A stretch of 64,000 nt of DNA from Bradyrhizobium sp. CCBAU 53338 (lineage in GTDB: Bacteria > Pseudomonadota > Alphaproteobacteria > Rhizobiales > Xanthobacteraceae), in the NCBI RefSeq assembly GCF_015291665.1, contig NZ_CP030049.1, forward strand, positions 806,001 through 870,000, read 5' to 3'. The number at the start of each line of letters is the position of its first letter. The stretch's first letter is position 1. The notes below the pieces were generated by a model. That model did not search any database. It was not told the origin of the DNA and saw nothing but the letters and a program-made list of their open reading frames with translations. Shown piece by piece: positions 2,402 to 49,284 of this stretch. Position numbers and translations under genes: made by a program.

Positions 2402-2524
2402 AGCATGGCGGGAGACATGAAGCGACGCTCGCTCATTGTCGAAGGACCACTCGCATTCGCGATGCAACTTTTTGCAAAGCAACTACGTTTGATCGGTCGC
2501 TTTTCTATTAAAGGGGAACAATAG

Positions 2525-3199: not shown

Positions 3200-3279
3200 G
3201 GTCAGTGTTGGATTCTAGTTTGGGATCCAGAGAAGGCAGCCGTTGAGAAGAATATATCGATGTCTCCTGCGCATTCGCC

Positions 3280-31053: not shown

Positions 31054-31506
31054 TCAACCGATCTTGCCCATGGCGACGAGGTGCCCGTCGGAGCCGATCT
31101 CACAGTACGTCGCGGCTGTACCGACTATGATGAATACCAAAGGGTCGGACTTGTGCCTTCGCAACTGCTTGCGCCACGACCGCCGGTCGACCCAGGACGG
31201 CGTTGGATGCCGCTCGGGATGGGTGTGCCACTCGCCCACGAAGTTCACGGCCCCTCCACTTTCGAACCACTCTCTGCTCGCGATTTCCTGATGGCCCTTG
31301 TCCTGCCGCACGAATCCGAAGCGGGTGCGGCGGTCTTCCGGCATCGGAGTCGTGCACTTCAATACTTCGACGTGCGGGCCTCGGTAGCGTCCCAAAAGTA
31401 TGCCGCCGGCCTCGCGATCCGACTCCGGCGGAGCCGCGAAGCGCGCGAGCTCTTGCGCGACGGCGTCGGCGAGGGTCACCAGACGGCCCTTCGCGAGAAA
31501 GATCAT
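31054..31506 (-). CDS. cap3: Cap3-like JAMM deconjugase
   Basis: A 150-residue JAB/MPN protease. The conserved glutamate precedes GGILLGRYRGPHVEVL, and the zinc site is EWHTHPERHPTPSWVDR (HxH...S..D). The start ATG 31506 overlaps the cap2 stop (ATGA). In type II CBASS, Cap3 removes the CD-NTase from the proteins to which Cap2 conjugates it. Its position as third gene after the CD-NTase and cap2 matches the canonical order. Confidence 0.88.
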   Translation of the reverse strand: MIFLAKGRLVTLADAVAQELARFAAPPESDREAGGILLGRYRGPHVEVLKCTTPMPEDRRTRFGFVRQDKGHQEIASREWFESGGAVNFVGEWHTHPERHPTPSWVDRRSWRKQLRRHKSDPLVFIIVGTAATYCEIGSDGHLVAMGKIG

Positions 31507-34332: not shown

Positions 34333-34524
34333 GGCCGATCTCCATCTGGAAAAGCGAGGGAGATCTAGACGGTGGACAATGCCCTCCAGTCGCACAACCG
34401 CGCGAATCAGACTCTATCTTGAGAGTCCACTAGATTGTAGAACAGAAAATGAACATTTCATACGGGATTCCCGAGCCTCGGTGGATCTCCGATGCCACAG
34501 CGTGCTCCGAAACTAGAGATTGCA

Positions 34525-35508
34525 ATGACTTTTCAGATACTTGCTCTCAGCGGCGGTGGCTTTCGAGGCCTGTTCACAAGTTCGGTCCTGGCGCGCCTGG
34601 AGGAGCAGGCAAAGCGCCCCCTTCACGAATGCTTTGACCTGATCTCGGGGACATCGGCAGGCGGCATTATCGCCCTCGGTCTGGCGATGGGAAAGAAGGC
34701 CGAGACGATTCAGGAGATGTTTCTCAAGCACGGGGAAGAGATATTCCCCCGCGGGGAGACGCCGAAAAGCCGGCTGGCGCAAATGCAGGCCCGGTGGTTC
34801 GAGTGGCGACATCCCAAGTACGACGGTACGGTGCTCCGGAGCAAGATCGAGGGCGTGCTCGGCGCCGACGCCAAGCTCGGCGACGCGAAGACGCGCGTGC
34901 TTGTTCCGACGGTCAACATGACCAAGGGAAGCGTCCAGATGTTCAAGACCGCGCATAATCCGAGGTTCATGACCGATTACAAGGTGAAGGCCGCGGACAT
35001 CGCCATGGCGACGGCGGCCGCGCCGCTGTACTTCCCGATGGCCGAGATCGGGAACAGCTATTTCATTGACGGCGGCGTGGTCGCGAACGCACCTGACCTT
35101 TGTGCGCTGCACGAAGCTGTCCAGTTCCTGGATCAAAAGATCGAGGACGTATCGGTGATGAGCATTGGCACGACCACCAGCAAATTCTCGCTGCCGACGT
35201 CGGCGGGACGCAATTTCGGCCAAAGGGACTGGCTCGAGAACAACCGGCTTCCATCGACCATCATTTCCTCGCAGCAACAGCTGGTCGATTTCATGCTCAA
35301 GCATCAGCTCGGCGATCGCTACATCAGGTTCGACGAGCAGCCCTCCGCCGAGCAGATTTCCGATCTCGGGATGGACCTCGCGACCGAGAGCCGGCGGAAG
35401 ACCCTGCTAGGGATGGCGGACGGTTGCTATCAAGCGCTGTGCAACGATAGGCGCGTCATCGATATGTTGGCACATCGGCCTACCAAGCCGACGTTCTATC
35501 ACGTGTGA
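34525..35508 (+). CDS. capV: CapV-like patatin phospholipase, CBASS effector
   Basis: A 327-residue patatin. The oxyanion motif GGGFRG is at residues 10-15, the nucleophile serine in GTSAGG near residue 44, and the catalytic aspartate in FIDGGVVANAP near residue 180. CapV enzymes are activated by cyclic GMP-AMP and degrade the inner membrane. ATG 34525 gives the usual family start; an ATG at 34492 is also open. The gene is divergent from the CD-NTase, with about 190 bases between, rather than upstream on the same strand as in the classic operon. Confidence 0.9.
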   Translation: MTFQILALSGGGFRGLFTSSVLARLEEQAKRPLHECFDLISGTSAGGIIALGLAMGKKAETIQEMFLKHGEEIFPRGETPKSRLAQMQARWFEWRHPKYDGTVLRSKIEGVLGADAKLGDAKTRVLVPTVNMTKGSVQMFKTAHNPRFMTDYKVKAADIAMATAAAPLYFPMAEIGNSYFIDGGVVANAPDLCALHEAVQFLDQKIEDVSVMSIGTTTSKFSLPTSAGRNFGQRDWLENNRLPSTIISSQQQLVDFMLKHQLGDRYIRFDEQPSAEQISDLGMDLATESRRKTLLGMADGCYQALCNDRRVIDMLAHRPTKPTFYHV

Positions 35509-35636
35509 ACTACGCAAGAGGGATCCAACGCGTAACATCGGCAGATTGCCTGAAGGCCGCGAGCAGGTTGAGATGCGAGCTACTCGTGGGGCCGGAAAGC
35601 TAGTGCGGGATCATCGAGGTTAAAGTTTCGGTCAAT

Positions 35637-36316
35637 GTGTCGCAATCGAGATTTGCCAAATGGAACGTTGAAGTGAAACAACACGACTATTCGTTGCACG
35701 GTGGACTGAACCGAGCCAAGGTCGGACGCTACCTAACGTTGATCGCCGCGTCGGTATCGGCTGCGATCGTTTTCACGCTGCTTTCCGTGGTCGACGTGGC
35801 GAACCGCTTCGGGCTCAATGTCAACCTGCCACCATCGGTCCTTTCCCTCGTCGGTGCGGGCATGGTCTTTGCGGCGCTCTATTGGACGCTCGATCGGTAC
35901 GCGTGGCGATGGCCCTTTCTGAATGCGGCGCTGAAGGTCCCGGATCTCGCTGGGAGCTGGTCCTGCGAAGGACGAAGCCTCAAGCCCGACGGGAGCCTCG
36001 GCTACGCATGGAGGGCGACCCTCACGATCTTTCAGACCTGGGACAAGATCCGAGTGAGGCTGAAGACGGATCAATCGGGCTCCGACAGCATTGGGCAGCC
36101 CTGATCTGCGACGACGCAGAGGGATATAGGCTTCTGTACAACTATCGGAACGACCCGGCTATCGGAGAGGTGGACTTAAGAAGCCATCTCGGTTCCTGCA
36201 TGCTTATTTTCTCGAAAGATCTGGAATCAGCAGAGGGCGAGTATTTCAACGGTCACGGCCGCTTCACATTTGGCACGATTAGTTTGAAGAGGGACCATGG
36301 TAAGGGACATCAATAG
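35637..36316 (+). pseudogene. Cap15-like 2TM/beta-barrel effector, frameshifted
   Basis: A GTG start leads to two transmembrane helices (residues 32-52 and 67-85), then the start of a beta-rich domain (VPDLAGSWSCEG, then GYAWRATLTIFQTWDKIRVRL). A stop follows at 36104 in this frame. From about 36090 the other frame continues the domain (AALICDDAEGYRLLYNYRN, LIFSKDLESAEGEYFNG) to 36316. One missing base would explain it. Cap15 effectors bind cyclic dinucleotides with the beta-barrel and disrupt the membrane. The end overlaps the CD-NTase start by 20 bases. Confidence 0.75.
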
Positions 36317-37415
36317 TCGACTGAACAAACTGCGCCTGCGTCGCAGGGGCGTCGACCGTCTTGGAAAACTCAACGAGGCTTCCCGCAAGGAAGTGTTGTC
36401 GAAGAGCTTGGCTGCGGAAAGCTGGCAGAATAGGGCTCCGTCGCATGCTTACACGCGATATGCGCTTGGCGCGATGCAGGAGGTGGGACCTGAGTACACC
36501 AGAATCAGTGTCGAAACGGCCGAGCGCGTGGGCAACCAAATCCAGAAATCCATCGATTCGGTCGAATTTCGGCTTCAGGGGTCGGTGCCCCTCAACGTCC
36601 ATATCCGGGGAGTCAGCGACGTCGATCTGCTCGTGCTGGAGACCGGTTTCCTCATATTCCACTCGTCGGGGCCCGCGGCAGGCACCTATGTTCCCACGGC
36701 GCGCAACTCGCTTGGAGTGCTAGGCGAACTACGTTCCTCGATCGAGAAGATCCTGCCATTGAACTTTCCAGCCGCCGACGTCGATACGTCCGGTGGGAAG
36801 GCGGTCGCCGTTTCTGGAGGGTCTCTGGCGCGACCGGTGGATGTTGTTCCGTCCCACTGGTACGATACCGTCGTCTACCAGCAGTCTAGACAGATTCACG
36901 ACCGAGGAGTTGTTATTCTCGATCGCAAAGTGCCGAAGACAATCGAGAACTTCCCATTCAAACACATAAAGCTGATCGAAGATCGTTGCAGTTCGTGTCT
37001 CGGCGGCCTGAGGAAGGCCATACGGCTCTGCAAGAACGTCAAGGCTGATGCGGTCGAGGAGGGTACCAAGATCAATTTCCCCAGCTTCGACATAGCCGCT
37101 ACCATGTATCACGCGGATCAGACGGCCTTGAAAATCGGATATCTCTACGAGTTACGGGTCCTCGCGGAGGTGCAGCGACATTTGGATTACCTGTATCACA
37201 ACCCTGAAGAAGCAAAGAAGTTGCGCGTCCCGGACAGCTCCCGGTTCATTTTCGACACACAGGAGAAGTACGAAGGCATGAAGGCGCTCTCACATGAAAT
37301 CGATGATCTCGTGAAGAACGTCGCCAAGGAGCAGAAGCCGCAACTGACGTTCGATCTGGGCATACCCTGGGGGGTGGCGCGAGGCGCCATCGAGTCGATC
37401 GAGATACCGAGTTAA
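36297..37415 (+). CDS. CD-NTase of a second CBASS-like locus
   Basis: A 372-residue nucleotidyltransferase. The active-site pattern is LQGSVPLNVHIRGVSDVDLLV near residues 93-113 (GS...DxD), with a third acidic residue in ARPVDVVPSHWYD near residue 180. It begins within the broken Cap15-like gene after a gaagaggga ribosome site. The sequence differs from the CdnA-type enzyme 2 kb away, so this is a separate synthase. Cap15-type effectors are known to accompany clade B and E enzymes; the clade here was not determined. Confidence 0.82.
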   Translation: MVRDINSRLNKLRLRRRGVDRLGKLNEASRKEVLSKSLAAESWQNRAPSHAYTRYALGAMQEVGPEYTRISVETAERVGNQIQKSIDSVEFRLQGSVPLNVHIRGVSDVDLLVLETGFLIFHSSGPAAGTYVPTARNSLGVLGELRSSIEKILPLNFPAADVDTSGGKAVAVSGGSLARPVDVVPSHWYDTVVYQQSRQIHDRGVVILDRKVPKTIENFPFKHIKLIEDRCSSCLGGLRKAIRLCKNVKADAVEEGTKINFPSFDIAATMYHADQTALKIGYLYELRVLAEVQRHLDYLYHNPEEAKKLRVPDSSRFIFDTQEKYEGMKALSHEIDDLVKNVAKEQKPQLTFDLGIPWGVARGAIESIEIPS

Positions 37416-37427
37416 GTCGTCGGGCCG

Positions 37428-37880
37428 CTAAAGCCTATTGACGCTGCCGCGTTCGAATCTCCACGTCGTGCCCTTGGAGACCAGGTAGAGAGCCAGGATC
37501 CCGGGAACGAGGGACATCGCCACGCAACTGTTGAACGCCGATCCTTTGTTGACAGGTGGGGGTATCTCTGAGGGGGGAGGGAAGAGGCGGTAGGACCACC
37601 CCGTGATGGTACAGCGCGAATGATGATCTACGGCAGCCATGATCGCTCCATCGTGAATCGCCTCGTTAAAAGCGATTGCTGCTCGCACGGTCTCCGCAAA
37701 ATTCTGGTCGAGGAATTGGCCCACCTCGGGGGAAGGATCGCGCGGCATTGGCTCGGCGAAACGTGGTAGGTTATTCTGATGGTAGAGACAGCAAATCAGC
37801 GGATCGAAAGCTGCTGGACGTCCAGCCAGAATCCTGAAGATTTCGTCTATTCCAGTCATCGCGGCTTCGGTCTTCGACAT
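37428..37880 (-). CDS. Small protein resembling a diadenylate-cyclase (DAC) domain
   Basis: A 150-residue protein read leftward from ATG 37880. Its second half lines up with DisA/CdaA-type domains: NEAIHDGAIM matches the LHDGAVII strand with the DGA motif. NKGSAFNSCVAMSLVPGILALYLVSKGTTWRFERG then matches the region of GTRHRAA...VSEETG...G. The catalytic RHR is replaced by AFN, so cyclase activity is doubtful; a nucleotide-sensing role is more likely. The gene lies between a CD-NTase and an intact Cap15-like gene, its start overlapping the latter's. The assignment is motif-level inference. Confidence 0.5.
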   Translation of the reverse strand: MSKTEAAMTGIDEIFRILAGRPAAFDPLICCLYHQNNLPRFAEPMPRDPSPEVGQFLDQNFAETVRAAIAFNEAIHDGAIMAAVDHHSRCTITGWSYRLFPPPSEIPPPVNKGSAFNSCVAMSLVPGILALYLVSKGTTWRFERGSVNRL

Positions 37881-38472
37881 GATCAACTTTCTTCAGACCC
37901 GGCTTCTATTTACGATAGTCGTCTGTCTGGCGATAGCGATATTCGCAGGGTTGAAGTTTGCCGATGTATTCACCGGCAACACCTACGAAGACGTCTGGAT
38001 ATTCTCCAGGTATGTCTTTGGCATACCTGCTGCTCTTGCTGTCGTCATCTACGGGGCATGGCGTGCTATCCCGATACTTCAGCGTATGACATTCCCCTAT
38101 TTGGGTGGCCGGTGGACCGGTGTGCTGCGCTATGGTCCACCCGACAGGCAGGAGCTCAGGGATGCCACGCTGACGATCCGACATCACTTGAGCGGGATGT
38201 CTCTTGTCCTCGAAACCAGGGAATCGACCTCGACTACGCTGGCGGTTGTAGCCACACGCGATCCTACCGGCACGCAATACCATGTGTACTACGTCTTCGA
38301 GAATCGACGGAAGGCTGAGTACACTAAGCCTGGGCTTCCTACGATTTATCGAGGCGTGGCTATAATGAGTGTTGGGATGTCGGGGACGAAGACTTTAAGC
38401 GGTGAATATTTTACGGACCAGCCGACAAATGGCATCGCCGAGTTCAAACTGGAGAGGCACGCCTGGTTTTAG
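37879..38472 (+). CDS. Second Cap15-like effector, intact
   Basis: A 197-residue protein with two transmembrane helices (residues 8-27 and 44-66). A beta-rich domain follows, starting FPYLGGRWTGVLRYG and running through TLTIRHHLSGMSLVLETRES and YHVYYVFEN to AIMSVGMSGTKTLSGEYFTD. This layout matches the Cap15 effector of CBASS, in which a cyclic dinucleotide binds the barrel. It is the intact relative of the frameshifted gene at 35637 and is likely the working effector for the CD-NTase at 36297. The ATG overlaps the divergent DAC-like gene's ATG. Confidence 0.75.
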   Translation: MINFLQTRLLFTIVVCLAIAIFAGLKFADVFTGNTYEDVWIFSRYVFGIPAALAVVIYGAWRAIPILQRMTFPYLGGRWTGVLRYGPPDRQELRDATLTIRHHLSGMSLVLETRESTSTTLAVVATRDPTGTQYHVYYVFENRRKAEYTKPGLPTIYRGVAIMSVGMSGTKTLSGEYFTDQPTNGIAEFKLERHAWF

Positions 38473-38660
38473 GCGACGATGCCGCGCCCGATCTTGCGAT
38501 CGGCGGGTGTGGGCGCATCCATGACCGGGCTGTACCGCTAAAGGCCTCGCAATCGATTGGGCGCAGTTGTCGACGCAACGGCATAAGCTCTATCGGGCGG
38601 CGCTTGACGGGGTCATCGGCGGAAAGCGGATACGCTTGGCCTCGGCGTTTGTTGCCACAA

Positions 38661-39130
38661 TGAAATTTCTGAATCTTAGGCCCTGATCGGTTCATTTATT
38701 TAATTGGACGGTCGATTCGGTAATTGCGATTCTGGCGCATGTCCGAACTCACCGTGCAATATCTCGTGCTCGAGCGTCGCGATCCGGCCCGTAACATGGC
38801 GCGGTTCTATGTGCTCACGATCGAGCCGACGCTGTTTGGCGATACGGCATTGGTGCGTGAATGGGGGCGCCTCGGTGGGCGCGGTCGACGGCGGCTCGAT
38901 TTGTTCGATGGTCACGCGCAGGCCGTCGAGGCCCTTGAGTGTTGGCTCAGGCGAAAAACCAGTCGTGGTTACGTCCAGCGGCACTCGTCAAGCTGTGACC
39001 CGGCGTGAGATGCTGGGCTGGACGAAAAGCCGAAATAAGTATATCAAAGTAATCTAAGGTCGTTTCAGTCCTATTCGCAAGAATTGCAAAAGTATTCCAT
39101 AATCTTCATTATGCGAATCCAAGTAATCCT
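38661..39130 (+). repeat. Long repeat, copy 2 (WGR unit)
   Basis: This is the direct-repeat partner of 3607-4080, with the same orientation. The 3' part contains CATAAT-CTTC-ATTATG (39098-39113), a short palindrome in a stretch also similar to 4036-4060. The unit contains the WGR gene intact here. Confidence 0.85.
38739..39008 (+). CDS. Small WGR-domain protein
   Basis: An 89-residue WGR protein (VREWGRLGGRGRRRLDLFDGHAQAVEALECWLRRK). It retains the 13 bases lost in copy 1. Its last ten residues (HSSSCDPA) differ from the copy 1 tail, which suggests local decay. The domain is named for the Trp-Gly-Arg motif and is thought to bind nucleic acid, as in PARP regulators and MolR-type proteins. It lies alone between the second CBASS and the Ubl operon, next to recombination-prone repeats. 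Confidence 0.8.
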   Translation: MSELTVQYLVLERRDPARNMARFYVLTIEPTLFGDTALVREWGRLGGRGRRRLDLFDGHAQAVEALECWLRRKTSRGYVQRHSSSCDPA

Positions 39131-39305
39131 AGCCGATCACAACCTCTTTTAGTATCGAGCATTTGCAGAACGAGCTATTTGCCAGCGCAGCAATTCAACC
39201 CAACTTGCCCTGCCCCAACGCGCTCTCGTGCTGATCAATCAAGTGACGAGTACGCGAGCTGACTATTTTATCTTCGATATTCGCAGCCGTTTGAAGCAAA
39301 CGTTC

Positions 39306-39866
39306 TCAAGCCGTGAAGTCGACCTTGTCCGTCCTTCCCAAGGCCGAACGTAAACGGAAGTGGCTTCTCAGCTTGCCAGTTCCCTCCTCGGCCACCCGCT
39401 TGCGAGCGAGGGTCCGACAGGCCTCCAGAACGTCCCAAGGGATCTCTCCGAGGTCATCGGCGACCTCGACAAATGACCGCCAAGCGGCGGACGACAATCG
39501 TTTCGACACTGGCTCGAGCAAATCGTCCAATGCAATACCAGCGTCTGTTTCCGCATCATTGTCTGATCCGAACAGATAAATACGTCCGCGCCAGATGATG
39601 TAGTGACTTTGACAGCCGGTATCGCGCCAAACAGAAGGAAACACACTCATTTTTCCTCCTTCCGCATTGTAGATACGCCAGGCGGGCCCACTTCTTGGAT
39701 CGAGGTTGACTGGAAATCGTTCGCCGCAACCGCAAGGACAGGACAACACAAGCCAACGTGGACCACCGCGGTTGACCAGGACAGCATCGCCGGGTTTCGA
39801 CAGGTGCTGGTCCGCCTCGCCTCGTGAAGAAACCTTCGCCCGAAAGTTGAGAATGACGATGCCCAT
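39306..39866 (-). CDS. DUF6527 family protein, last gene of the Ubl operon
   Basis: A 186-residue protein with a cysteine cluster (VLSCPCGCGERFPVNLDP) and the family phrase SVFPSVWRDTGCQSHYIIWRGRIYLFG. DUF6527 proteins recur in ubiquitin-like conjugation operons in bacteria; their role is unknown, though the cysteines suggest zinc binding. The C-terminal 70 residues are charged. It follows the kinase-like gene by 9 bases, so it is co-transcribed. Confidence 0.8.
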   Translation of the reverse strand: MGIVILNFRAKVSSRGEADQHLSKPGDAVLVNRGGPRWLVLSCPCGCGERFPVNLDPRSGPAWRIYNAEGGKMSVFPSVWRDTGCQSHYIIWRGRIYLFGSDNDAETDAGIALDDLLEPVSKRLSSAAWRSFVEVADDLGEIPWDVLEACRTLARKRVAEEGTGKLRSHFRLRSALGRTDKVDFTA

Positions 39867-39875
39867 GAATTCGCC

Positions 39876-41447
39876 TCACTGCGGTGCGAAGTTGTTGTTG
39901 AGAATGCGCTCTGCTAACACGTACGCAGCGGCGCGACGCTCATCCTCAGGACCTTTCAGGTTTGGATCTTTGGCCGCCTTGTTCAGAAGGGCCAGTGCAA
40001 GAGCCGCTCCGTATTGATCTGCTGACGCGACACGCGCGGCATAGTGCCGGATCTGTCGCACGGCTTCGTGAAACCAGCGATGCGGATCGCGCGGATCACC
40101 GTGCCCGAGCAGCATGTCGAGCGGCTTACCACCATACGGTTGCTCAATCGACCTCCACCACTCATCGAAGGACCAGAGCTCATGATTATCGAAGGCATCG
40201 ACCAATAGGCTGGCCTCCAAGGTCGCTATGTCCCACACCAGCGGTCCATCCTGATTGGCATAGAAGTCGATGACGAGCGCCTCGTGCCCCCTCACCTGAA
40301 CATTGTCGACGTGGAGATCGCCATGAATCTTTGCGAATAACACCGGAGAACTTGCGCAGTATTCGAACAATGTAAACAGTCGATCGCGGTCGCATCTCGA
40401 GCCGATCGATCGCGCCCTTTGCATCCGGCGCCGGTCAAATTGCTTTGGAAAGCGCGGACCCAGGGTCTGCGAAAGTGGCGTATCTCGGCGTTCGATATTT
40501 CGATACCACGCTTGCAGCGTTCGATCGAACAGGCACGATATTGCCGGCCCGGCCCGGCCGCTCCGTGCGGCAAGCCTTAGACTCTCGCAGGATTCGATGA
40601 GATCGCCGACCAGCACACCGCGTGTCGATCCGAGACAGCATAAATCGTAGTTCAATCGCGGCCCGAGATTGAAAGGCACGTATTTCTCGACATTCAATTG
40701 GTAATTCTGAAATTCTTGAAAGATCTTGCTGCGATCACCGAGTTTGACAAAACGCGGCATAGTATGAAAGGCGCCGAAGACCGGGTAGGCACGGTATACG
40801 GCAGCCCCGGACCGGCCTTCGGTCATTGGACTGAAATGCACGGCCGTGTAACCTCTGAATGCGCGCTTCAGAAGGACTTGGCCAACACCAGCGTCGTTCT
40901 CTCCAAACTCGCATTCGGGAGCGAAGCTGAAACTGACAGACTCTTGTACGGCCTCGCCGGGGAGATGCCGAACCAAGAAGTTGGCCGCTTCCGACCAATT
41001 GGCAATGGGCGACAAGATGGTGACGTGCGGCAGCGGGGGGAGAGGCATCGGATCGCCCAATGATCTCTGCCACGTGAACTGATTGCGCAGGACGTCGCTC
41101 GGAAGGTTGCTGGCAAACACACGCGCCTCTTCCAGACATCTATACACTTGCGGAAGACCAGCAACGCCGAACGGCACGACAAAGACGCGGCATTCGTAAT
41201 CAAGCAGGTGCTTAAGGCAGCTTCGAACGATTCGCTGGAATCTTGATGGGTAATCTTGTTGCTGGACGATTACGACGGCGGCAAGGCTCGCCAACAGAGC
41301 AGGCTCCATCGGCTGAAAAGCGGTAATCTGCTGTTGTCTGATCGTGAGGCCGCGGTCTTGAAACGGCGCCTTAGCCTCAGCCGGGGGATCGGCGCCGATC
41401 CAGCCAACCTCCGACCGACCAAAAGCTGTAACGTCAACGATTGACAT
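39876..41447 (-). CDS. Aminoglycoside-phosphotransferase-like kinase in the Ubl operon
   Basis: A 523-residue protein whose start ATG 41447 overlaps the JAB-E1 gene end by 14 bases. About 200 N-terminal residues (SIVDVTAFGRSEVGW, then LAAVVIVQQQDYPSRF) look like a receiver-like or other alpha/beta domain. An APH-type kinase follows: a nucleotide-loop-like GRSGAAVYRAYPV near residue 215, the catalytic loop KIHGDLHVDNVQ near residue 375, and the metal site VIDFYANQDG near 392. Key residues appear present. I know of no established kinase component in such operons; it may modify the Ubl, its enzymes or a target. Confidence 0.7.
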   Translation of the reverse strand: MSIVDVTAFGRSEVGWIGADPPAEAKAPFQDRGLTIRQQQITAFQPMEPALLASLAAVVIVQQQDYPSRFQRIVRSCLKHLLDYECRVFVVPFGVAGLPQVYRCLEEARVFASNLPSDVLRNQFTWQRSLGDPMPLPPLPHVTILSPIANWSEAANFLVRHLPGEAVQESVSFSFAPECEFGENDAGVGQVLLKRAFRGYTAVHFSPMTEGRSGAAVYRAYPVFGAFHTMPRFVKLGDRSKIFQEFQNYQLNVEKYVPFNLGPRLNYDLCCLGSTRGVLVGDLIESCESLRLAARSGRAGPAISCLFDRTLQAWYRNIERRDTPLSQTLGPRFPKQFDRRRMQRARSIGSRCDRDRLFTLFEYCASSPVLFAKIHGDLHVDNVQVRGHEALVIDFYANQDGPLVWDIATLEASLLVDAFDNHELWSFDEWWRSIEQPYGGKPLDMLLGHGDPRDPHRWFHEAVRQIRHYAARVASADQYGAALALALLNKAAKDPNLKGPEDERRAAAYVLAERILNNNFAPQ

Positions 41448-42780
41448 TTTGAGCGAGACGGCCTTGGAGAGCCAATCCATCGCCCCTTGCCAAAACGCCT
41501 GCCCGCGAGCAGACGATGCAGTCCTGGACGGGCTCACCCTTGACCGACCGGAGGCGACTTCTCAGACCATCATACAGAAGATGCCGCGCCGGCGATGGCA
41601 CGCCGACAACAGCGGACAAGAACATGGTGATGGCGAGCGAGGTAATAGTGCTGTTGATCGAGATCACCGCGGGCGCAGGTTCACGAGCGCCGACGAGATA
41701 AGGATCCTGCTTGCGCTCGGCCTCCGACATCATGTCGCGGCGGACCTCGTTACCGTCCAAGAGGCCACCGCAGGTGAGGCAAGCCAATCCAGGCGACAGC
41801 ATCTGGGCGCGGCCGGTAATGTGAGTGATCTTGCCCCCCTTAACGGCGATAACCGTCCCGATATCGATGCAAGGAATGAGATATTGATAAGCTAATTGCT
41901 GAAGGACGGCTCGACTACCGTGTGAATCGGTGCAGCAAAACAGCACATCAACGTCTCGCAATTTCTTTGCGGTTTCGACGAAGACGACGTTCTCTTGAAA
42001 AGAGGTGACTACGGCACGAGGTTGAACTGCGCGAATATATCGCTCGGCCACCGCGACTTTGGCCTGCCCCGTATCGGCAGATGCGGACCCTGCCAAGCGG
42101 TTCAAATTAGTCAGCTCGACGTCATCTGGATCAACTAGAACGAACTCCTTGACGCCGAGGTGAGCCAATTGCTGCACGGCCAGCGATCCCGTGCCACCAA
42201 GTCCCACGATCCCCACCCTGAGGCTTTGGAGGATGCTCTGCCCGGCACGACCGAAGGCCCGAACCTGCCGATCGTAAAGATCGGAAGGGTCGTGTGATCG
42301 ACTGGGATCAAACAGGACTCGTCGATCATCCCCTACCGCAATCAGACGAAGATGTCGGTCGCTTCCAAGGTAGCGACATGCATACCCTCCGTCGCTCACA
42401 ACAAGGGCCAGATGCTGCAAGTCAGGGGTTCGATGCCGAAAGAAGTGTGCGAGAACCTCCTCGCCCGCATCGTCAATGCGCGAAAACTCGGGCGCGGCCC
42501 TCCCGGGATGGCTATGCACAAACACCAGGCTACTTTTGGTCCGCGCAGCAATCTTTGCCCACCTGGCGATGAACGCAGGCCGCAGCTCTGCTTCGAGTTG
42601 GCTGCGCCGAGTGTAGTCGTCTTCAGCGGGCACTACGACCTCTCGCACCAACACCCTTGCACGACCGTCGGCCCGAGACGTTCTGCCGCACATCAAGACC
42701 AAGCATAACTCGGTTCGACCGCCCAGCACGGAGCGCCGGACGAAGTCGAGATCGGCAAAGGTGATGAGAAGATCGTCCAC
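41434..42780 (-). CDS. JAB-E1 (ThiF) fusion of the Ubl conjugation operon
   Basis: A 448-residue fusion. The GTG start at 42780 shares one base with the E2 stop (TAGTG). The N-terminal JAB domain has FVHSHPGRAAPEFSRIDDAG near residue 85, the JAMM zinc site. The C-terminal ThiF/E1 domain begins SLRVGIVGLGGTGSLAVQQLAHLG near residue 190, with VDPDDVELTNLNRL and a later CLTCGG. It would both process the ubiquitin-like precursor and adenylate its C-terminus. JAB-E1 fusions with a multi-ubiquitin-type Ubl and an E2 are a known bacterial arrangement. Confidence 0.88.
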   Translation of the reverse strand: MDDLLITFADLDFVRRSVLGGRTELCLVLMCGRTSRADGRARVLVREVVVPAEDDYTRRSQLEAELRPAFIARWAKIAARTKSSLVFVHSHPGRAAPEFSRIDDAGEEVLAHFFRHRTPDLQHLALVVSDGGYACRYLGSDRHLRLIAVGDDRRVLFDPSRSHDPSDLYDRQVRAFGRAGQSILQSLRVGIVGLGGTGSLAVQQLAHLGVKEFVLVDPDDVELTNLNRLAGSASADTGQAKVAVAERYIRAVQPRAVVTSFQENVVFVETAKKLRDVDVLFCCTDSHGSRAVLQQLAYQYLIPCIDIGTVIAVKGGKITHITGRAQMLSPGLACLTCGGLLDGNEVRRDMMSEAERKQDPYLVGAREPAPAVISINSTITSLAITMFLSAVVGVPSPARHLLYDGLRSRLRSVKGEPVQDCIVCSRAGVLARGDGLALQGRLAQNVNR

Positions 42781-43163
42781 TATCGTGCGGGGTTTAGACG
42801 TTGCGCGATGACGTTGACATAGGTCAGCATGTTGTCGCGATTTGGATTCCAAGATTGCAAGTGCCACGAAAACCAAGTGCCTCGCGGCTCACCCCCTGGG
42901 ACCGGATTGGCATCGTTCGAGGCGGTTGGAGCGCCGCCGTCCACCAAGCGAACAGGCCCCGGTTCCAACCAGAAGCAATCCGGTTGTGCCGAAGGATATC
43001 CCGGTGGCAGCAGAAAAATGACGGTCCCTTTAGCGATGCTCCAACCTTCTGGAAGATCGAATTCCGGAATCTCAACCAATACAGCTCCGTTGGACATCGG
43101 GGTTCGACGCGCCAAGGGAAAATGCTGTTGGAGCGCCGCAAACTGCTTATCAATGATTTCCAT
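42780..43163 (-). CDS. E2-like protein (prokaryotic E2 family E)
   Basis: A 127-residue protein with the UBC-like order LVEIPEFDLPEGWS, then VIFLLPPGYPSAQPDCFW, then RGTWFSWHLQSWNPNRDNMLTYVNVI. This matches the small E2-family E proteins that accompany multi-ubiquitin genes. Only one cysteine (near residue 63) is present, so a thioester role is possible but not certain. The ATG at 43163 overlaps the Ubl gene end by 14 bases; an upstream TTG would give a longer form. Confidence 0.82.
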   Translation of the reverse strand: MEIIDKQFAALQQHFPLARRTPMSNGAVLVEIPEFDLPEGWSIAKGTVIFLLPPGYPSAQPDCFWLEPGPVRLVDGGAPTASNDANPVPGGEPRGTWFSWHLQSWNPNRDNMLTYVNVIAQRLNPAR

Positions 43164-43401
43164 GTCCAAATGTCGCCGGCGGCACTGCAAAAAAATGCTT
43201 GATCCGATCGTTCAGGGGCACTGTATCTGGGTCAGCGATCGGACGATCCGGCGTGTCTCCCTGCTCTTCCAAAAAAAGCTGATAATTCGCTTCGATCTTG
43301 GCGATCCGCTTAATGTCGGCCCCGGAGAGATAAGAATGCTCGGTCTCGTATTTCACCCCATCAACGAAAAAGTGGAATTCCTTTTCTTTTTTGTCGTTCA
43401 T
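43150..43401 (-). CDS. Single-domain multi-ubiquitin-type protein (Ubl)
   Basis: An 83-residue protein with the Multi_ubiq signature: FHFFVDGVKYETEHSYLSGADIKRIA, then NYQLFLEE, then KHFFAVPPATFGHGNH. The family usually carries two or more tandem domains; here there is only one. A glycine is four residues from the end, so JAB trimming could expose a conjugatable glycine. It is the first gene of the minus-strand operon and is preceded by a TTGACA-type promoter. It is the protein modifier of the system. Confidence 0.88.
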   Translation of the reverse strand: MNDKKEKEFHFFVDGVKYETEHSYLSGADIKRIAKIEANYQLFLEEQGDTPDRPIADPDTVPLNDRIKHFFAVPPATFGHGNH

Positions 43402-43856
43402 GATCTCCTACCTGCTCCGGTGCGGCCTCCCGACGAAGACCGATGCGCATGCTATCAGCTAGAACAAATAAAGAACAGTGTCAAGGTCTTCTCCCCTTGG
43501 ATCTTGCAGCTAGGTGCCTGTCAGTTGCGCCGAGTTCGTGCGGCTCAACGTGACTGGCGGCTACCAGCGAGTGGCGAAACGCCGCCGCTTCGCGCGGGCC
43601 TAGCTGCGTCCTGGATCGCGGAAGCAATCTAAGCGGCTGCTTGCGGCGCCGCGCGCGGGTGAATTCTTCAAGCTTGCACGTCAACTATCCTCAATCCCGA
43701 CGCGGGCATGACCGTTCCGAGCTGGAGTGCTACGCCATCACCACGCCCGCACCTCCAAGACAAACCAACGAATGAATGGCGTGAGTCGACAGGAGGTCTC
43801 GAGTGCCTCTAAGATGTAGGGAAGTAAGTTCGCGGAAGCCGCGTACGGGTGGGGCA
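43402..43856. other. Promoter region of the Ubl operon and gene-poor stretch
   Basis: No gene is seen. On the minus strand TTGACA (43484-43479) and TAGCTG (43461-43456) are 17 bases apart, a fair promoter for the Ubl operon that begins at 43401. Confidence 0.45.
43456..43484 (-). promoter_or_regulatory. Possible sigma-70-type promoter of the Ubl operon
   Basis: A perfect -35 hexamer TTGACA is followed after 17 bases by the weak -10 TAGCTG, about 55 bases before the Ubl start. Confidence 0.4.
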
Positions 43857-44273
43857 GTGAACTTCCAGGTGACGGTTCTCAAGGTGCTGGTCAGCTATCC
43901 GGACGGGTTCGCCGTCCTGGAGGACATCAAGCGCGATATGGCGATTCTGGCCACCAGCGGACGGGACTGGGCCGAACGCACGAAGCGATTGGCGGCCCGC
44001 GTGCCTGACCTGGATATCTTCTCCCAACGTCTCATCGAGCGAAGGAACGGCGGCTGGCGCATCACTGATAAGGGACGCGAGGTTCTCGCGGTCATGGAGG
44101 CGCGGCCCGCACCAGCTCAGCCAATGGAGCTGCCTGATGCCCGCGCGGTCGAGGAGCCGGCGCCAGCCACGACACTGTCGCCGATGCCGTCGATCACGCC
44201 GGTTCGACGCCTGCGCAAACAAACCCGACGCCAAGCGTTGCGGCAGTTGCAACGTGCGAGAGCTCGCTCGTGA
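43857..44273 (+). CDS. Small winged-helix protein, rhizobial type
   Basis: A 138-residue protein (a longer 156-residue frame opens at GTG 43803). The N-terminal 80 residues (NFQVTVLKVLVSYPDGFAVLEDIKRDM, then GWRITDKGREVLAVME) fit a winged-helix DNA-binding domain. A proline-rich linker and a basic tail (RRLRKQTRRQALRQ) follow. Very similar small genes occur in rhizobial symbiosis regions, to my recollection. GTG 43857 is preferred for its ggtgggg site. Function is unknown. Confidence 0.65.
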   Translation: MNFQVTVLKVLVSYPDGFAVLEDIKRDMAILATSGRDWAERTKRLAARVPDLDIFSQRLIERRNGGWRITDKGREVLAVMEARPAPAQPMELPDARAVEEPAPATTLSPMPSITPVRRLRKQTRRQALRQLQRARARS

Positions 44274-44309
44274 GCAAAGGACGGGCCTTGGCTCCAGCAT
44301 CGAAGATGA

Positions 44310-44382
44310 TTGATTCGTATAACCTTCATTATGTAATATCCGAAGTTGAGTTTGCATCAAATTGTGTAGTCTGAAGTTGGTC
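44310..44382 (+). repeat. Diverged 73-base repeat, copy A
   Basis: This stretch resembles 49145-49217: ttgattcgtataaccttcat against ttgatttgcacaaccttcat, then aatatccgaa, gcatcaaa and ttgtg. The two lie in the same direction and bracket the LacI/IS remnants and the type III effector. The rest of 44274-44647 holds no gene. Confidence 0.65.
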
Positions 44383-44647
44383 CCTAAGTACCTGCTGTCG
44401 TCGGTTGCGTAGTCGCGTGATCCCCGCTAGAAAAGTCATCTTCAGCAAGGGTGCTCACAATGGACGACTATTCGGACGACATAAGACGACCGTTGTGGCC
44501 GCGTATCGAAGTGTATGCTGGCGCAGGTCGCAAGCGTCGGCCGGATGTTGGTGCTGGACGCTGTAGCGGAACCGTTGGAACGTTCAAAGAAGTGTGGGCC
44601 TCAGAGGCAGGCCTCGCGCAAGAACCGGCTTTGCGCAAGCCCGCCAT

Positions 44648-45125
44648 TTAACCGATGGCAGCATCATTAGCCGTGAACACGGCGTCTACGCCGGGAAGCT
44701 GCGCATGCGCCAGCGTCGTGCAGGCCGTGTTGCGGTCCAGGATCAGCCGACGTGGGTCAGTAAGGCCGCTCGCAACGGCGTTGTCGCGAAATCCGAGCCG
44801 GCGGCGGGTCGTGCGCGGGTCGGTGCCGTCGATGAACGCTAAGTTCTTGCGTCCTTGCGCGACGAAGTGCCGGGCGACGGTATCGCCCGCCTGGTAGTTA
44901 TCGAAACCGACGACTGCATCGATTGGAGACGATGGCAGCTCCCGTGTTTCACCTACGGGACTGCGTGCATGCCGCAGCAGGCGAGCGCCCTCCTCCGTTG
45001 CGGGTGATCCGACCATGATGATCGCCTCCGGCCGCCGCGACAGCAGTGCAGTCAGCAGGCGATCCTGCGAGGGGAGAGTCGTAGCGCGACTGCGCGAGAA
45101 TGACTGAGAATCCGAGCGGTTCGAG
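44648..45125 (-). pseudogene. LacI-family regulator fragment
   Basis: Reading leftward: [19 protein letters not shown], then, after a frameshift near 45085, [23 protein letters not shown] and on to [20 protein letters not shown] and [10 protein letters not shown]. This is the ligand-binding domain of a LacI/GalR-type regulator, truncated at both ends. The DNA-binding headpiece is missing; instead an IS110 fragment abuts it at about 45125. It cannot be functional. Confidence 0.75.
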
Positions 45126-45388
45126 CACTGACAAAGGCGCCTGCGCATGCCGAGCGTCGATACAGACCACTGGAAGATCAGCCCTACGAAGCTCGTGCCA
45201 CAGCCAACTCGCCATCGTCCCGGTCTCAAAACAAATGCGCTCGGCGTGTGGAGCTCGCTTGCGGAGCAGTGCCGTGAGCGCCCGGGGTCGGACTTGGCCT
45301 TTCCCTCTAACAAGACCTGACCGACCTCGTCGAGCACACACACTGACGTTTCATTCTGCGAGACATCCAGCCCAACATATTGCTTCAT
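45125..45388 (-). pseudogene. IS110-family transposase N-terminal fragment
   Basis: From ATG 45388 the frame reads [21 protein letters not shown], the DEDD transposase start of IS110-type elements. After a frameshift near 45290 it continues [37 protein letters not shown]. The protein ends there, joined directly to the LacI fragment. About 85 of roughly 340 residues remain. Confidence 0.75.
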
Positions 45389-45566
45389 AGCCCCTCCGAT
45401 TCGTAAGATGGTGGAGGGCTTGAAGATAGTGGACCTTTCGTGCCGCGGGCGCGACCGCAATTACGTCATCGTCTGCAATATTGCCCCCCTAAGCCGGGAT
45501 CGCGCCCAACATTGACCCAGTTGGGCTGTTGCGCTGCCTGCTTTGGAATGAAGCAGGTGGTCGGCG

Positions 45567-45851
45567 ATGCTGGTCATGGAGACGATTGCGCGAATACGGC
45601 GTGAGCACTTCATCAGAGGCAAGACGATCAAGGAGATCGCCTGTGACCCGAAGGTGTCGCGGAACACGGTCCGAAAGGTACTGAGGTCTGGGGAGACCTC
45701 CTTCGAGTTTGACCGCCAAGTGCAGCCGCGGCCAAAGCTGGGAGGATGGCCAGTAGAGCTTGACGGACTGCTCGCGGCGAACGATGCTAAACCGGCTCGT
45801 GAACAGCTGACGTTGATCCGGATCTTCGAAGACCTGCGCCGGCCGTGGTAA
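45567..45851 (+). pseudogene. IS21-family IstA fragment
   Basis: This is the N-terminal 94 residues of an IS21 transposase: METIARIRREHFIRGKTIKEIACDPKVSRNTVRKVLRSG, the helix-turn-helix, then REQLTLIRIFEDLR. It ends in a stop where a full-length protein would continue into the catalytic core. It is a truncated remnant. Confidence 0.8.
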
Positions 45852-45900
45852 CGCGGTTATAGTTCTGGAATTCAAGTAGAGGCATTCAACCGCTGCTCGC

Positions 45901-46122
45901 CTAAGCGACTGGCGCAATAGCCACCGTTAGCCTTCTTAGGAGAGCCAGTTCGGCCTCACCAGCGGCCGTGCGCCTAAGTACCAGCTTGGCAAGCTCTGTT
46001 CGATTGACGGGAGTTCGCATACTTGCAGGCAGCGCCGCCACCGCTTCATCATAGATCTTTCCCAACACCGAAAGAATTTCCGCATCGAAGACCTCACCTC
46101 GTACCTGCAACACTTGTACCAA
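45901..46122 (-). CDS. Small uncharacterised protein
   Basis: A 73-codon frame whose helical sequence (IYDEAVAALPASMRTPVNRTELAKLVLRRTAAGEAELALLRRL) has the look of a conserved rhizobial small protein. A ribosome site is not obvious. It lies between IS debris and the effector. It may be the end of a larger decayed gene. No gene is seen in 46123-46385. Confidence 0.35.
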   Translation of the reverse strand: MVQVLQVRGEVFDAEILSVLGKIYDEAVAALPASMRTPVNRTELAKLVLRRTAAGEAELALLRRLTVAIAPVA

Positions 46123-46385
46123 ATCTCCTGTCGAAACATCGCGCTGGCGACTCGCTGCAACAAAGCCTGCCTGACCTACTTACGCGGGCTGATCGTCCGC
46201 GTCGGCGAAAGGGTGCGCCCGACGCTCAGTTTGTCTCCTTCCAATCGCTGCGGCCAGACCGGACAGTCGCGCGCAAGCTGTCGCCGGCCAGCTTGTAGGC
46301 CCACGACCCCGATTACGGCCCACTGGCTTCGGATTTCCTGGTCTGACCAATGATGTCGCCACTCGGTACTCTACCGTTAAAGCCC

Positions 46386-48659
46386 CTAGATCCCAAGTCG
46401 AGCGGCCTGCGTTGACAGTTGCTCCGCCTCGGCAAGCCGATAGGGTGGGATGTCACTACGCACTGTGGCCAACAAGGACTTACAGAACGCAGGCGTGAGC
46501 TTGCCGCGGTGAATCACGACGTTTTCGCAGCCCGTCGCCGCCCGGGCGTTCTGCCACTGCTGATTATAGCCGCGTTGTTCGTTGGACTTGACGTGGCAAG
46601 CGGCGAAGTCGGCGTCATCCAGCGTCGCCAACTGGCCCGTATGTACCGGTCGCTTCGTATGGATGTGAACCCACATGGGGCTCGGCATTGCACCATTGCG
46701 CAGCGCCTTGGGTTGCAGCTTAACCTGAAACAGCACCCCTGGCTCGCCCTTTAACGCGCGCGGTAGATCGGCAGGCGCCAACTCCCCGGCCGCGCGCAAC
46801 TGTTCAAGGTACTTCTGCGACGGAAAGCCGTAGGTCTTCATGCATTCAATCCTAGTCAATGCCCTTCGCTCGTCCAAAGTCTTGGCGAGCCCCTGCGCCT
46901 CGGCCCGCATCATCTTGAGTCGGACTAGCTTGCCATGCACCTCGGGCACTTGCGTTGGCGTGAGTAGGATACGTCGACCAGGCTCCGCGAGCGAACCCTC
47001 ACAAGCCTGCATTTCGGCGGCCTGGGTCTGCAGGCGCTCGATCACGGCATCCACAACGTGGTCGGCGTCCTCGGGCTTCATTTGGCGGGCTTGCGAGACG
47101 GCCCGTTGCTGACCAGCCAGATCAAACTGCAAAAGTGCGTCCAACCGCTCGAGTAGGCGCGCCAGCGTCTCCATTGATGGCGGGGCCTGCCAGATCGCCA
47201 AGTGTGCCGTCGCCGAGGATGTCGCCCTCGCATGCGCCTCTTCCGCGCTCACGAGCTTCTTCGTACCCAGATCCGAGAGCACCACAACTTTGGCTGCTGG
47301 CGCCGTGGCTTTGTCGGTTGTAGCGATCTGCAGCTGCGTCCCGTCGCGTGCCGAACTCCCGGCGAGAGTGCTCGGTGTACGTTTGGCTTTACCCTTCCTG
47401 CGCGCAGAAGTGCCTTCGGCCGCTACAGCCTCTCGCGTAGCGTTGGCCGGCTTCGCAGCCCCTGCTTCGACCGCCGGTGAATTGATGGCCGACGTTTTGG
47501 GCTGTAGATCCAGCAGCCGCATAACGTCGTGTGCAGTGACCCACGCGCTTTCCACGATCTGATGCAACAGTTTCAATGGCAGGTCGTCACCGGTCCCCTG
47601 ACCCCTTAGCTTTGAAACGAGGTTGTGCACTCCCAACGCAAATTCAGAAAGCCGCTCCATAACTCCTTCCAGGACCGCGCAGTGCGCCGCGTCGAGTGCG
47701 CGTCCTTGGCTCTGTAGAACTGCGTCCTTTGTCGATATGAATGCCGGAAAAACGTCATCGATGAAAGTGCCGAGCAGGCGAGCCCGTCCGTTCTCGGCCA
47801 TGAGGATTTCCCTCGTGGCTGGGTCGAACGTGCTTTCGAGAGGCTCAATCATGATTTGTGCGAGAGCGACCTGCGATTGCAGATGCATGCACTTGGTGTG
47901 CAGTGCCCAACCGCTGTGCAGCCGCAGTGCGGCCTCGTCGGCCTGCCGCTTTTGGGCCGTTACATTGGGTAAATTAGCAGTAGCGGCGCAGACGCATTGC
48001 ATCCGTTCCGAACGCAACGCCTTCTTTCCCCACCACTCCATGCAGTCCGCATAGCGGTTTGCTACGCCGGAAACCGCTCGGTTCAGTAGGTCAGAGGGAG
48101 TGTTGGATAGCATCCGTTGGAGCACGACGGTTGCACTTTTCCTGCTCTGCTCCAAGGCGTAGATGGTCGGGGTGGCCAGAGCGTTACATTGCTCCGCCGC
48201 ATGGAGCACCTCGTCCCGGAGACCGCGAGCCTGATCGTCAGACAGAATCCTGCGCGCCTCGTGCTGGGGCAGGCTGGCGTAGTACTCCAGAACTTTTGAG
48301 CCGACCTGGATGAGCTTGTCGATCAGCTCTTGTGCCTCTGACGAGCTCCGCGCTTGCATGGCCGCCTTACTGCGAGCGCCAACTTCCGAGAGCAGGCTTT
48401 CCATTTGTCGCTTTGTTGCCTTGATCTCGTCACCCGTCGATGAAATGGGGACTGCCATATCCGAAGTTCGCGGCTGGCTGCCGACCAACGCCGCTCTATC
48501 CTGAGGCCAAGAGCGCATTCGCTCCACGATGGAATAGAAGGATTGGCCGCCCTCCCCAGCGGCGAGACTCGATTCTGAACGCAAACTGCTCGAGTCCCAA
48601 GTGCTGTCGGCTCCGGGAGCCCCAACGAGCGATTTGCCAGGCCGGCCAATACCCGTCAT
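46386..48659 (-). CDS. Type III effector candidate of the XopP/HLK (RipH) kind
   Basis: A 757-residue hydrophilic, largely helical protein. The C-terminal region (MWVHIHTKRPVHTGQLATLDDADFAACHVK, then NQQWQNARAATGCENVVIHRGKL) resembles the conserved end of XopP/HLK effectors of Xanthomonas and Ralstonia. The first 60 residues are rich in Ser and Gly and lack a Sec signal, as type III signals do. A tts box lies about 47 bases upstream of the ATG, so expression should need TtsI and flavonoids. XopP-type effectors interfere with plant immunity. The family call is by motif memory and is moderate; the tts box strengthens it. Confidence 0.72.
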   Translation of the reverse strand: MTGIGRPGKSLVGAPGADSTWDSSSLRSESSLAAGEGGQSFYSIVERMRSWPQDRAALVGSQPRTSDMAVPISSTGDEIKATKRQMESLLSEVGARSKAAMQARSSSEAQELIDKLIQVGSKVLEYYASLPQHEARRILSDDQARGLRDEVLHAAEQCNALATPTIYALEQSRKSATVVLQRMLSNTPSDLLNRAVSGVANRYADCMEWWGKKALRSERMQCVCAATANLPNVTAQKRQADEAALRLHSGWALHTKCMHLQSQVALAQIMIEPLESTFDPATREILMAENGRARLLGTFIDDVFPAFISTKDAVLQSQGRALDAAHCAVLEGVMERLSEFALGVHNLVSKLRGQGTGDDLPLKLLHQIVESAWVTAHDVMRLLDLQPKTSAINSPAVEAGAAKPANATREAVAAEGTSARRKGKAKRTPSTLAGSSARDGTQLQIATTDKATAPAAKVVVLSDLGTKKLVSAEEAHARATSSATAHLAIWQAPPSMETLARLLERLDALLQFDLAGQQRAVSQARQMKPEDADHVVDAVIERLQTQAAEMQACEGSLAEPGRRILLTPTQVPEVHGKLVRLKMMRAEAQGLAKTLDERRALTRIECMKTYGFPSQKYLEQLRAAGELAPADLPRALKGEPGVLFQVKLQPKALRNGAMPSPMWVHIHTKRPVHTGQLATLDDADFAACHVKSNEQRGYNQQWQNARAATGCENVVIHRGKLTPAFCKSLLATVRSDIPPYRLAEAEQLSTQAARLGI

Positions 48660-48699
48660 ATTCTAACTCCGATCCAGGCGAGAACGTGAAGCCTAATTA

Positions 48700-48730
48700 G
48701 ATAGACGGCTTGGCTGACGATCAGCTGACG
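48700..48730 (-). promoter_or_regulatory. tts box (TtsI-binding promoter element)
   Basis: Read on the minus strand from 48730: CGTCAGCTGATCGTCAGCC then AAGCCGTC. The GTCAGCT, TCG and AGC elements and their spacing match the rhizobial tts box that drives type III secretion genes. It sits about 47 bases before the effector start, in the right orientation. Confidence 0.72.
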
Positions 48731-49284
48731 AACGGCATTCTCCCGGACTCACCACGAAAATCAGAATCACCGTGCTTCCAATTCCATAGAAGATGCCTTG
48801 GTTTGAGGTTTCCGGTCTGCAGACACGCGTCCTGCTTTGCAACCAGGCCGTGGAGACGGAGCGCAACACTCCCCGCCCTAAAGCAGAGGCTGGTGGGCCC
48901 TCAGCAGGCGAGGTATCGGACGCGCACGCTGCAGAGCCGATGGTGCGATCACAGTCGGGCTGAATACGCAGAGCATTCGATTGACCTTCGCGGGCAGTTG
49001 GAAGCGATGATCTATCGGTGGTCCAGTCGCGGGAATACTGCCTTTGATAGCGCTAGTTCGGCGCAGAGACCGAGAGTGGCGCGAGTGCAGGAGACAGCCA
49101 GCGGGTCGTTTTACACGCAGGCGATTGATCTCAGTCAGCTTTCGTTGATTTGCACAACCTTCATTTTGGAATATCCGAAATCAGAGCTGCATCAAAATTG
49201 TGCTGCCTGAGGCCAGTCTATTTTTGAGGGCACTCGCAAGGGAGCACGCATCGACGAATGCGGTGAAACGATTCGCAAACAAGC
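48731..49284. other. Gene-poor stretch with repeat copy B
   Basis: No gene is supported; a 166-codon frame on the plus strand (48710-49210) crosses the tts box and has no domain. Bases 49145-49217 are the diverged partner of the 73-base repeat at 44310. A PIN-type toxin gene, the expected partner of the following antitoxin, is absent. Confidence 0.5.
49145..49217 (+). repeat. Diverged 73-base repeat, copy B
   Basis: This is the partner of 44310-44382, with the same orientation. The conserved core is aaccttcatt followed by aatatccgaa and gcatcaaa. Confidence 0.65.

Follow-up and report, generated by a model that had tools for sequence, protein, structure and literature searches.

A putative kinase-coupled subtype of the Bub-type ubiquitin-like conjugation operon on a Bradyrhizobium megaplasmid

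The closest described systems are the bacterial ubiquitination-like (Bub) operons and the arrangement given as row 6e in Table 1 of Iyer, Burroughs, and Aravind (2006) (PMC1779556), which as tabulated comprises a poly-ubiquitin-like protein (polyUbl), an inactive E2/RWD-like protein, a JAB-E1 fusion, and a metal-binding protein, and which includes a case with a solo ubiquitin-like (Ubl) domain (Amac). The locus studied here lies on contig 2 (981,946 bases) of the genome of the nitrogen-fixing Bradyrhizobium sp. CCBAU 53338, a Bradyrhizobium megaplasmid, within an analyzed stretch of 64,000 nucleotides (NZ_CP030049.1, positions 806,001 to 870,000; the window). It consists of five tightly packed minus-strand genes coding for a Ubl, an E2 of family E, a JAB-E1 fusion, a 523-residue kinase of the aminoglycoside phosphotransferase (APH) fold, and a DUF6527 protein. 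Judged from the predicted proteins, namely a Multi_ubiq Ubl, E2 family E, JAB fused to E1, and a DUF6527 protein with C-x3-C, the operon is of the Bub, or Iyer 6e, kind. Its core of four genes has been described before, and the kinase coupling is what is provisionally new. We propose, with confidence and doubt in about equal measure, that the locus represents a kinase-coupled subtype of Bub (Iyer type 6e) operon, probably a mobile defense or stress module, in which the action of the kinase is tied to the Ubl.

The Ubl gene (43150 to 43401; coordinates are those of the window, and all five genes lie on its minus strand) encodes 83 residues with one Multi_ubiq domain (Pfam, 1.2e-6, over the cut-off) and the C terminus ...FAVPPATFG-HGNH, in which trimming probably occurs after the FG. 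It is followed by the E2 family E gene (42780 to 43163; 127 residues; Prok-E2_E, 1.4e-13), whose product carries the motifs DCFW and S-x-H...W-x-P, and by the JAB-E1 gene (41434 to 42780), which is read from a GTG start into 448 residues with a ThiF adenylation domain (2.6e-38) containing GLGGTGS and with the JAB motif HSHP...S..D; the Prok-JAB score of 22.7 bits was just below the cut-off of 25. The kinase gene (39876 to 41447) matched TCAD9 (PF19974; 4e-17, 62.9 bits against a cut-off of 40) and, barely over the cut-off, APH (5e-5). The operon is completed by the DUF6527 gene (39306 to 39866; 186 residues; 6.8e-18), whose product has a metal-site-like signature, C43-x3-C47-x37-C85-x2-H88, with all four residues invariant in an alignment of nine rows, and had no match of note among PDB sequences. 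The Ubl and E2 genes and the E1 and kinase genes overlap by 14 bases each, one base is common to E2 and E1 (TAG/GTG), and 9 bases separate the kinase from DUF6527. A first-pass annotation of this DNA had described the five-gene operon with its E1/kinase overlap and the motifs KIHGDLHVDN and VIDF in the kinase; the operon was confirmed by open reading frames (ORFs) and Pfam matches and the motifs were present, while the start given, 43484, was moved to 43401, where the Ubl coding region begins. All five genes look to be under purifying selection, with ratios of nonsynonymous to synonymous substitution (dN/dS) relative to Bradyrhizobium sp. 62B of 0.03 (Ubl), 0.08 (E2), 0.09 (E1), 0.094 (kinase), and 0.15 (DUF6527), figures that are rough because synonymous sites are close to saturation (dS 1.0 to 1.7).

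Likeness to Bub operons was evident in the two conjugation enzymes: the E1 matched Citrobacter BubCD over residues 21 to 390 (3.4e-36), and Citrobacter BubB was the best PDB match of the E2 (2.6e-4; the BubB/BubCD entries are 9ea4, 9ea5, 9ea8, 9eae, and 9eav). The kinase-linked operons differ from Bub operons in the kinase itself, in an FG Ubl tail, in a DCFW motif in the E2, in four constant E1 cysteines, in a single-domain Ubl at many loci, and in a sublineage with a second Ubl gene. Row 6e holds the same core gene set, which the first-pass annotation had likewise called a known bacterial arrangement, but as tabulated it has no kinase. Its metal site is given as C-x3-C-x(35-38)-H-x2-C, so that the last two ligands are reversed here, and its E2 is described without a conserved cysteine, whereas the kinase-linked E2s have a constant, at most putatively catalytic Cys (PMC1779556). 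The TCAD9 family, over whose cut-off the kinase scores, is named from NTP-dependent ternary conflict systems, whereas here it stands within a Ubl operon; no vWA, MoxR ATPase, or VMAP gene was found among the scanned window neighbors or among genes annotated up to 12 kb away on the plasmid of B. guangxiense. Type II cyclic-oligonucleotide-based antiphage signaling systems (CBASS) with Cap2/Cap3 and the BilABCD system share the bacterial E1/E2/JAB logic in defense but have another kind of E1 (the BilD model gave only 8.4e-5), and no CD-NTase lies within the operon. No description of a kinase link of Ubl operons was found in the open-licence literature, a scope without the defining Bub papers (Gong 2025, Ye 2026), and the link is provisionally regarded as undescribed.

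A recurrent link between kinase and Ubl genes had been set beforehand as the test of the first-pass proposal, and such a link was found, in distant bacteria as well. A kinase profile search of 212 genomes of the genus, taken from the plasmid matches to be Bradyrhizobium, identified 21 loci in 20 genomes (three kinase rows in genome G851 were counted as one locus). An E1 gene lay within 1 kb at 19 of them, the other two being isolated fragments (G957 and G875). At 16 of the 21, the Ubl, E2, E1, kinase, and DUF6527 genes were present without visible break, three of these (G835, G890, and G969) being judged from plasmid records with the same coordinates. The three damaged loci with an E1 nearby comprised one with a single stop (TAG) in the kinase (G887), one with E1 and kinase in pieces (G851), and one in which no Ubl or E2 was found (G780). 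Among plasmids, three kinase queries matched 12 records, of which 10 had all five genes, including that of Rhizobium sp. C104 with E1 and kinase in pieces; the remaining two held kinase and DUF6527 remnants (Bradyrhizobium 187) and a lone fragment (Lichenihabitans). Five plasmid records of Bradyrhizobium isolated from nodules or roots of peanut (B. guangxiense, B. guangzhouense, B. guangdongense, and two further strains; the B. guangdongense record is possibly the window's own or a near copy) carry the window's own operon (4,096 bases) at 100.0% identity, and a plasmid of Bradyrhizobium sp. 62B carries it at 75%; the operon was likewise present in B. zhengyangense and strain DOA9.

The five-gene set also occurred in Mesorhizobium, Rhizobium, and Deinococcus, and kinase-linked operons were seen on both plasmids and chromosome-sized contigs. 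The operon of the Deinococcus plasmid was complete and in the same gene order, with a kinase about 22 to 29% identical to that of the window. In a scan of 397 genomes of the order, all four strong kinase matches were in such operons. Four weak ones (29 to 32 bits over about 85 to 99 profile positions) lay outside, with no Ubl-operon gene in their 11-kb stretches, and were read as general APH-fold proteins. A scan of 385 genomes at class level found the kinase in 1, that of the window itself. Full-length homologues lie in Ubl operons where the context was readable, contrary to the possibility, raised at first pass, that they would be found mostly away from Ubl genes. The kinase family is much larger than the loci whose gene context was read, as three protein-database searches returned 31, 134, and 72 relatives.

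The same linkage was observed when the search started from the E1. When the 212 genomes were queried with the E1 of the window (E value of 1e-30 or better), 19 loci scored at least 297.9 bits, and the kinase was present at all 19. The remaining 37 rows scored at most 178.5 bits; one was the second half of the E1 of G851, and the other 36 had no adjoining kinase match. Among the best 60 of 137 plasmid records, 11 had an E1 of at least 44% identity, and the kinase was present at 10. The exception was a Roseomonas mucosa plasmid, where an E1 of 45.5% identity, readable from about residue 31, lies beside an IS21 element with DUF6527 directly after it; no Ubl or E2 was found there, and no kinase query matched. 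The E2 family E gene occurred in 16 of the 397 order genomes, and all 16 contexts were read: four had the kinase, and the other 12 gave no kinase query match within the stretch examined. The kinase-less Bub relatives that were fetched carry DUF6527 too.

An E1 tree comprising 19 kinase-linked rows and 11 without a kinase (two of the latter from the class scan) placed the kinase-linked rows on one side of a branch with support of 100/99, so that the kinase label changes only once. The tree was built without a 77-residue piece (L088), a broken E1 (L091), L099, L009, L084, remnant loci, and identical copies; many of its rows are Bradyrhizobium, the kinase-linked loci were found via the kinase, and long branches (L034, L010, and L089) and possible false joins were flagged. 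Ten of the 11 well-supported splits of the kinase tree, which omits L076 (reading frame cut by a stop), were also in the E1 tree when compared by eye, and the remaining one is at odds with a weak branch of the latter. The kinase and E1 are co-inherited. Two architectures were distinguished. In architecture I, found in the window and 12 other typed loci (G780 partial), the order is Ubl-E2-E1-kinase-DUF6527; in architecture II, found in seven loci that form one clade of the E1 tree (100/100), it is Ubl-E2-E1-DUF6527-Ubl2-kinase. The kinase is last in all seven, directly behind the extra Ubl2 gene, which overlaps it in L026 and L027. Strain DOA9 has one operon of each architecture. At L092, the contig ends just past DUF6527, so that any gene behind it is out of view.

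The kinase-linked lineage was also marked by changes in its partners. All 18 first Ubls extracted from kinase-linked operons have the tail P[PK]xxFG plus 0 to 4 residues and the seven Ubl2s have PPT[AS]FG plus 0 to 8, whereas six of eight kinase-less loci with a Ubl match have QTTEG. The E2 motif DCFW was present in 18/18 kinase-linked rows, with Met at the same place in 11/11 others. An E2 Ser, first read from a trimmed alignment as a further mark, was rejected: a pattern search gave S-x-H before W-x-P in 18/18 kinase-linked and 10/11 other rows, so that only the DCFW/Met difference stands. Four E1 cysteines (366, 369, 453, and 456 in 480-residue numbering) were constant in 19 kinase-linked rows, and each occurred in 45 to 64% of the others. 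The single Ubl domain had been called unusual in the first-pass annotation, a view that did not hold, given the solo-domain case in the 2006 table (PMC1779556) and the first Ubls of 20 kinase-linked loci, of which nine are single-domain by length (about 83 to 98 residues), 10 are longer, and one was unmeasured.

For the kinase, AlphaFold2 (mean predicted local distance difference test score, 89.5) and fold matches suggested a receiver-like domain at about residues 10 to 165 and indicated an APH-fold kinase at about 185 to 523; the protein is predicted to be an APH kinase behind a receiver-like domain. Residues K235, E245, H375, D377, H379, N382, and D394 were invariant in a 22-row alignment, with HGDLH at 375 to 379. 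With the catalytic Lys, Glu, HxDxxxxN, and second Asp all present, the active site is, by its residues, intact; a predicted structure lacking the active site, the other contrary outcome considered at first pass, was not seen, the predicted structure having the kinase fold. Among invariant or near-invariant columns of two kinase alignments, there was no conserved phospho-acceptor Asp in the receiver-like domain. The window's kinase had no match among phages, and no relative was found in viral contigs, covered in two of eight scans with other queries, the Mesorhizobium kinase and P0010.

Ubiquitin and kinase signaling are closely interwoven in eukaryotes, as in PINK1-ubiquitin and NF-kappaB. Here a compact bacterial operon, with five or six genes and, in the window, adjoining CBASS genes, ties both activities together genetically, and Bub-like operons split into kinase-linked and kinase-less lineages with matching Ubl-tail and E2 changes. 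This provides a small system for asking directly whether a kinase is under the control of Ubl conjugation or instead marks a Ubl. Tagging and phosphorylation are probably coupled within a single defense or stress module. From what is known of the families, the Ubl would be cut back to FG by the JAB domain, adenylated by the E1, and passed to protein targets by the E2, while JAB, perhaps with DUF6527, might edit or recognize the products. The kinase, to judge from its coupling, would serve the pathway as a dedicated enzyme of output or control: its receiver-like domain may dock on one of the pathway proteins (Ubl, E2, or E1), and a Ubl that is attached to the kinase or bound by it may switch phosphorylation of a molecule of the cell or of a phage. 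That kinase and Ubl work as a pair is hinted at most strongly by the position of Ubl2 directly before the kinase in architecture II. That the kinase is a Ubl-controlled output we hold at slightly under an even chance. Action on the Ubl or the conjugation enzymes is a less likely assignment, and a substrate, small molecule or other, that involves no direct contact with the Ubl a rather unlikely one. More tentatively, the operon may encode an immune pathway that joins Ubl conjugation and phosphorylation in an obligate circuit, in which Ubl or Ubl2 gates, or is modified by, the receiver-like/APH kinase, as an independently evolved counterpart of ubiquitin-kinase crosstalk.

Several observations weigh against this proposal. 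Kinase-less Bub relatives exist, so that the core set in itself does not require the kinase; the decayed Roseomonas locus is the sole case against strict kinase-E1 coupling. No Ubl-kinase fusion was seen among the kinase relatives, the Multi_ubiq label being carried by 0/31, 0/120 (the best 120 of 134), and 0/72 of those listed. The window's operon has no recognizable CapH, CapP, or CapW regulator, and in PMC13373217 phage protection by Bub operons is given as not demonstrated. The kinase folds closest to this one are mostly those of small-molecule kinases (choline, aminoglycoside, homoserine, fructosamine, methylthioribose, and similar), so that the fold is no proof of protein-kinase activity. 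Finally, no Ser, Thr, or Tyr was invariant in 11 aligned kinase-linked Ubls, which by alignment weighs mildly against a conserved Ubl phosphosite.

This last result bears most directly on the first-pass suggestion of second-layer tagging, in which the kinase would phosphorylate Ubl, Ubl2, Ubl-modified proteins, or E1/E2 and so alter the meaning of the tag. PINK1 does phosphorylate ubiquitin. The most constant Ubl Ser/Thr (by eye), that of a [ST]-G motif, is however also present in kinase-less Ubls and is Glu in one Ubl2. Such tagging seems unlikely on balance, and a Ubl-tied output kinase is favored over a Ubl-marking one because there is no conserved phosphosite; the earlier interpretation as a whole is partly supported. 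Alternatively, the kinase may phosphorylate a metabolite such as a nucleotide or a sugar and thereby arrest growth or signal, with Ubl conjugation only localizing or activating it. Besides the closest folds, the tie of TCAD9 domains to vWA-MoxR-VMAP conflict systems given in PMC10910872 would fit, as would the suggestion, in PMC7159879, that the few active APH kinases of such systems might act on small molecules, and the kinase is the most divergent of the five proteins by mean pairwise identity over 17 loci (35%, against 42% for Ubl, 43% for DUF6527, 47% for E1, and 49% for E2). Fold alone is indecisive, and the ties to Ubl2 and the E1 lineage favor a protein partner; we regard such an effector as improbable. 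Broken kinases at a few loci (a single TAG in G887; fragments in G851 and Rhizobium C104, where the E1 is broken as well) and the Roseomonas locus without a kinase match would be expected of a passenger that landed in a Bub operon by chance and was carried along. A chance neighbor was rejected on the linkage and congruent trees, and with linkage across two phyla, an invariant active site, and the low dN/dS of the kinase, a passenger is very improbable.

The surroundings of kinase-linked operons were also compared. Upstream of 12 of 17 lies one of three arrangements: helix-turn-helix (HTH) and M78 peptidase genes as a divergent pair, a divergent protein in which HTH and M78 are fused, or, at two loci, a WYL protein reading toward the operon (seven loci by Pfam, five by ORF reading). 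These are kinds of controllers named in PMC13373217, where CapH with CapP, and CapW, are DNA-damage-responsive controllers of CBASS and Bub operons. In Ubl2-type operons (L026 and L080 to L083), a small divergent ORF (about 110 to 158 residues) recurs beside the HTH-M78 regulator upstream of Ubl. Upstream of the three-Ubl operon of Rhizobium sp. C104 (L009), a gene at about 621 to 4064 is annotated as an ATP-dependent helicase, with an N-terminal part that by eye is M78-peptidase-like. In the window, a divergent 156-residue gene (43803 to 44273) was rejected as operon regulator, as similar stretches occur on other Bradyrhizobium plasmids without an operon match. Promoter and terminator scans gave signals at shuffle level only, and Rfam gave no match at the gathering score over 34000 to 46500.

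When 33579 to 49036 was compared with Bradyrhizobium sp. 62B (L006), the flanks were 97.8% and 94.7% identical, whereas the operon was 74.7% identical and in opposite orientation at the same place. Near-identical flanks around a divergent, inverted operon suggest that divergent forms of one whole cassette fill the same slot, as in allele-like replacement. An invertible cassette was rejected, the inverted repeats around the operon being short and imperfect (at most 25 nucleotides, 72 to 89% complementary).

The adjoining CBASS genes include a CD-NTase (36297 to 37415; PADLOC, 1.4e-149) and a Cap15-like gene (37879 to 38472), with a gene of the two-transmembrane (2TM) type nearby. The first 2TM effector gene is present as two overlapping ORFs in different frames (35637 to 36104 and 35882 to 36316), whereas in strain 62B a single gene, 645 bases long, is annotated. 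A second CBASS, at about 31054 to 35508 as projected from L011 coordinates, has a phospholipase, a DncV-like enzyme, a ThiF-family protein, and a Mov34 protein annotated on the near-identical B. guangxiense plasmid; with its ThiF and Mov34 proteins, two ubiquitin-like E1 systems would lie on one island. A small WGR-domain protein, so annotated in L006 and L011, is encoded at 38724 to 39008, in the interval that separates the Ubl operon from the CBASS genes. On the other side of the operon, a 757-residue protein (46386 to 48659) gave PRK09169-type and weaker XopP matches, both far under the cut-offs, and by its looks is a relative of type III effectors on the symbiotic plasmid.

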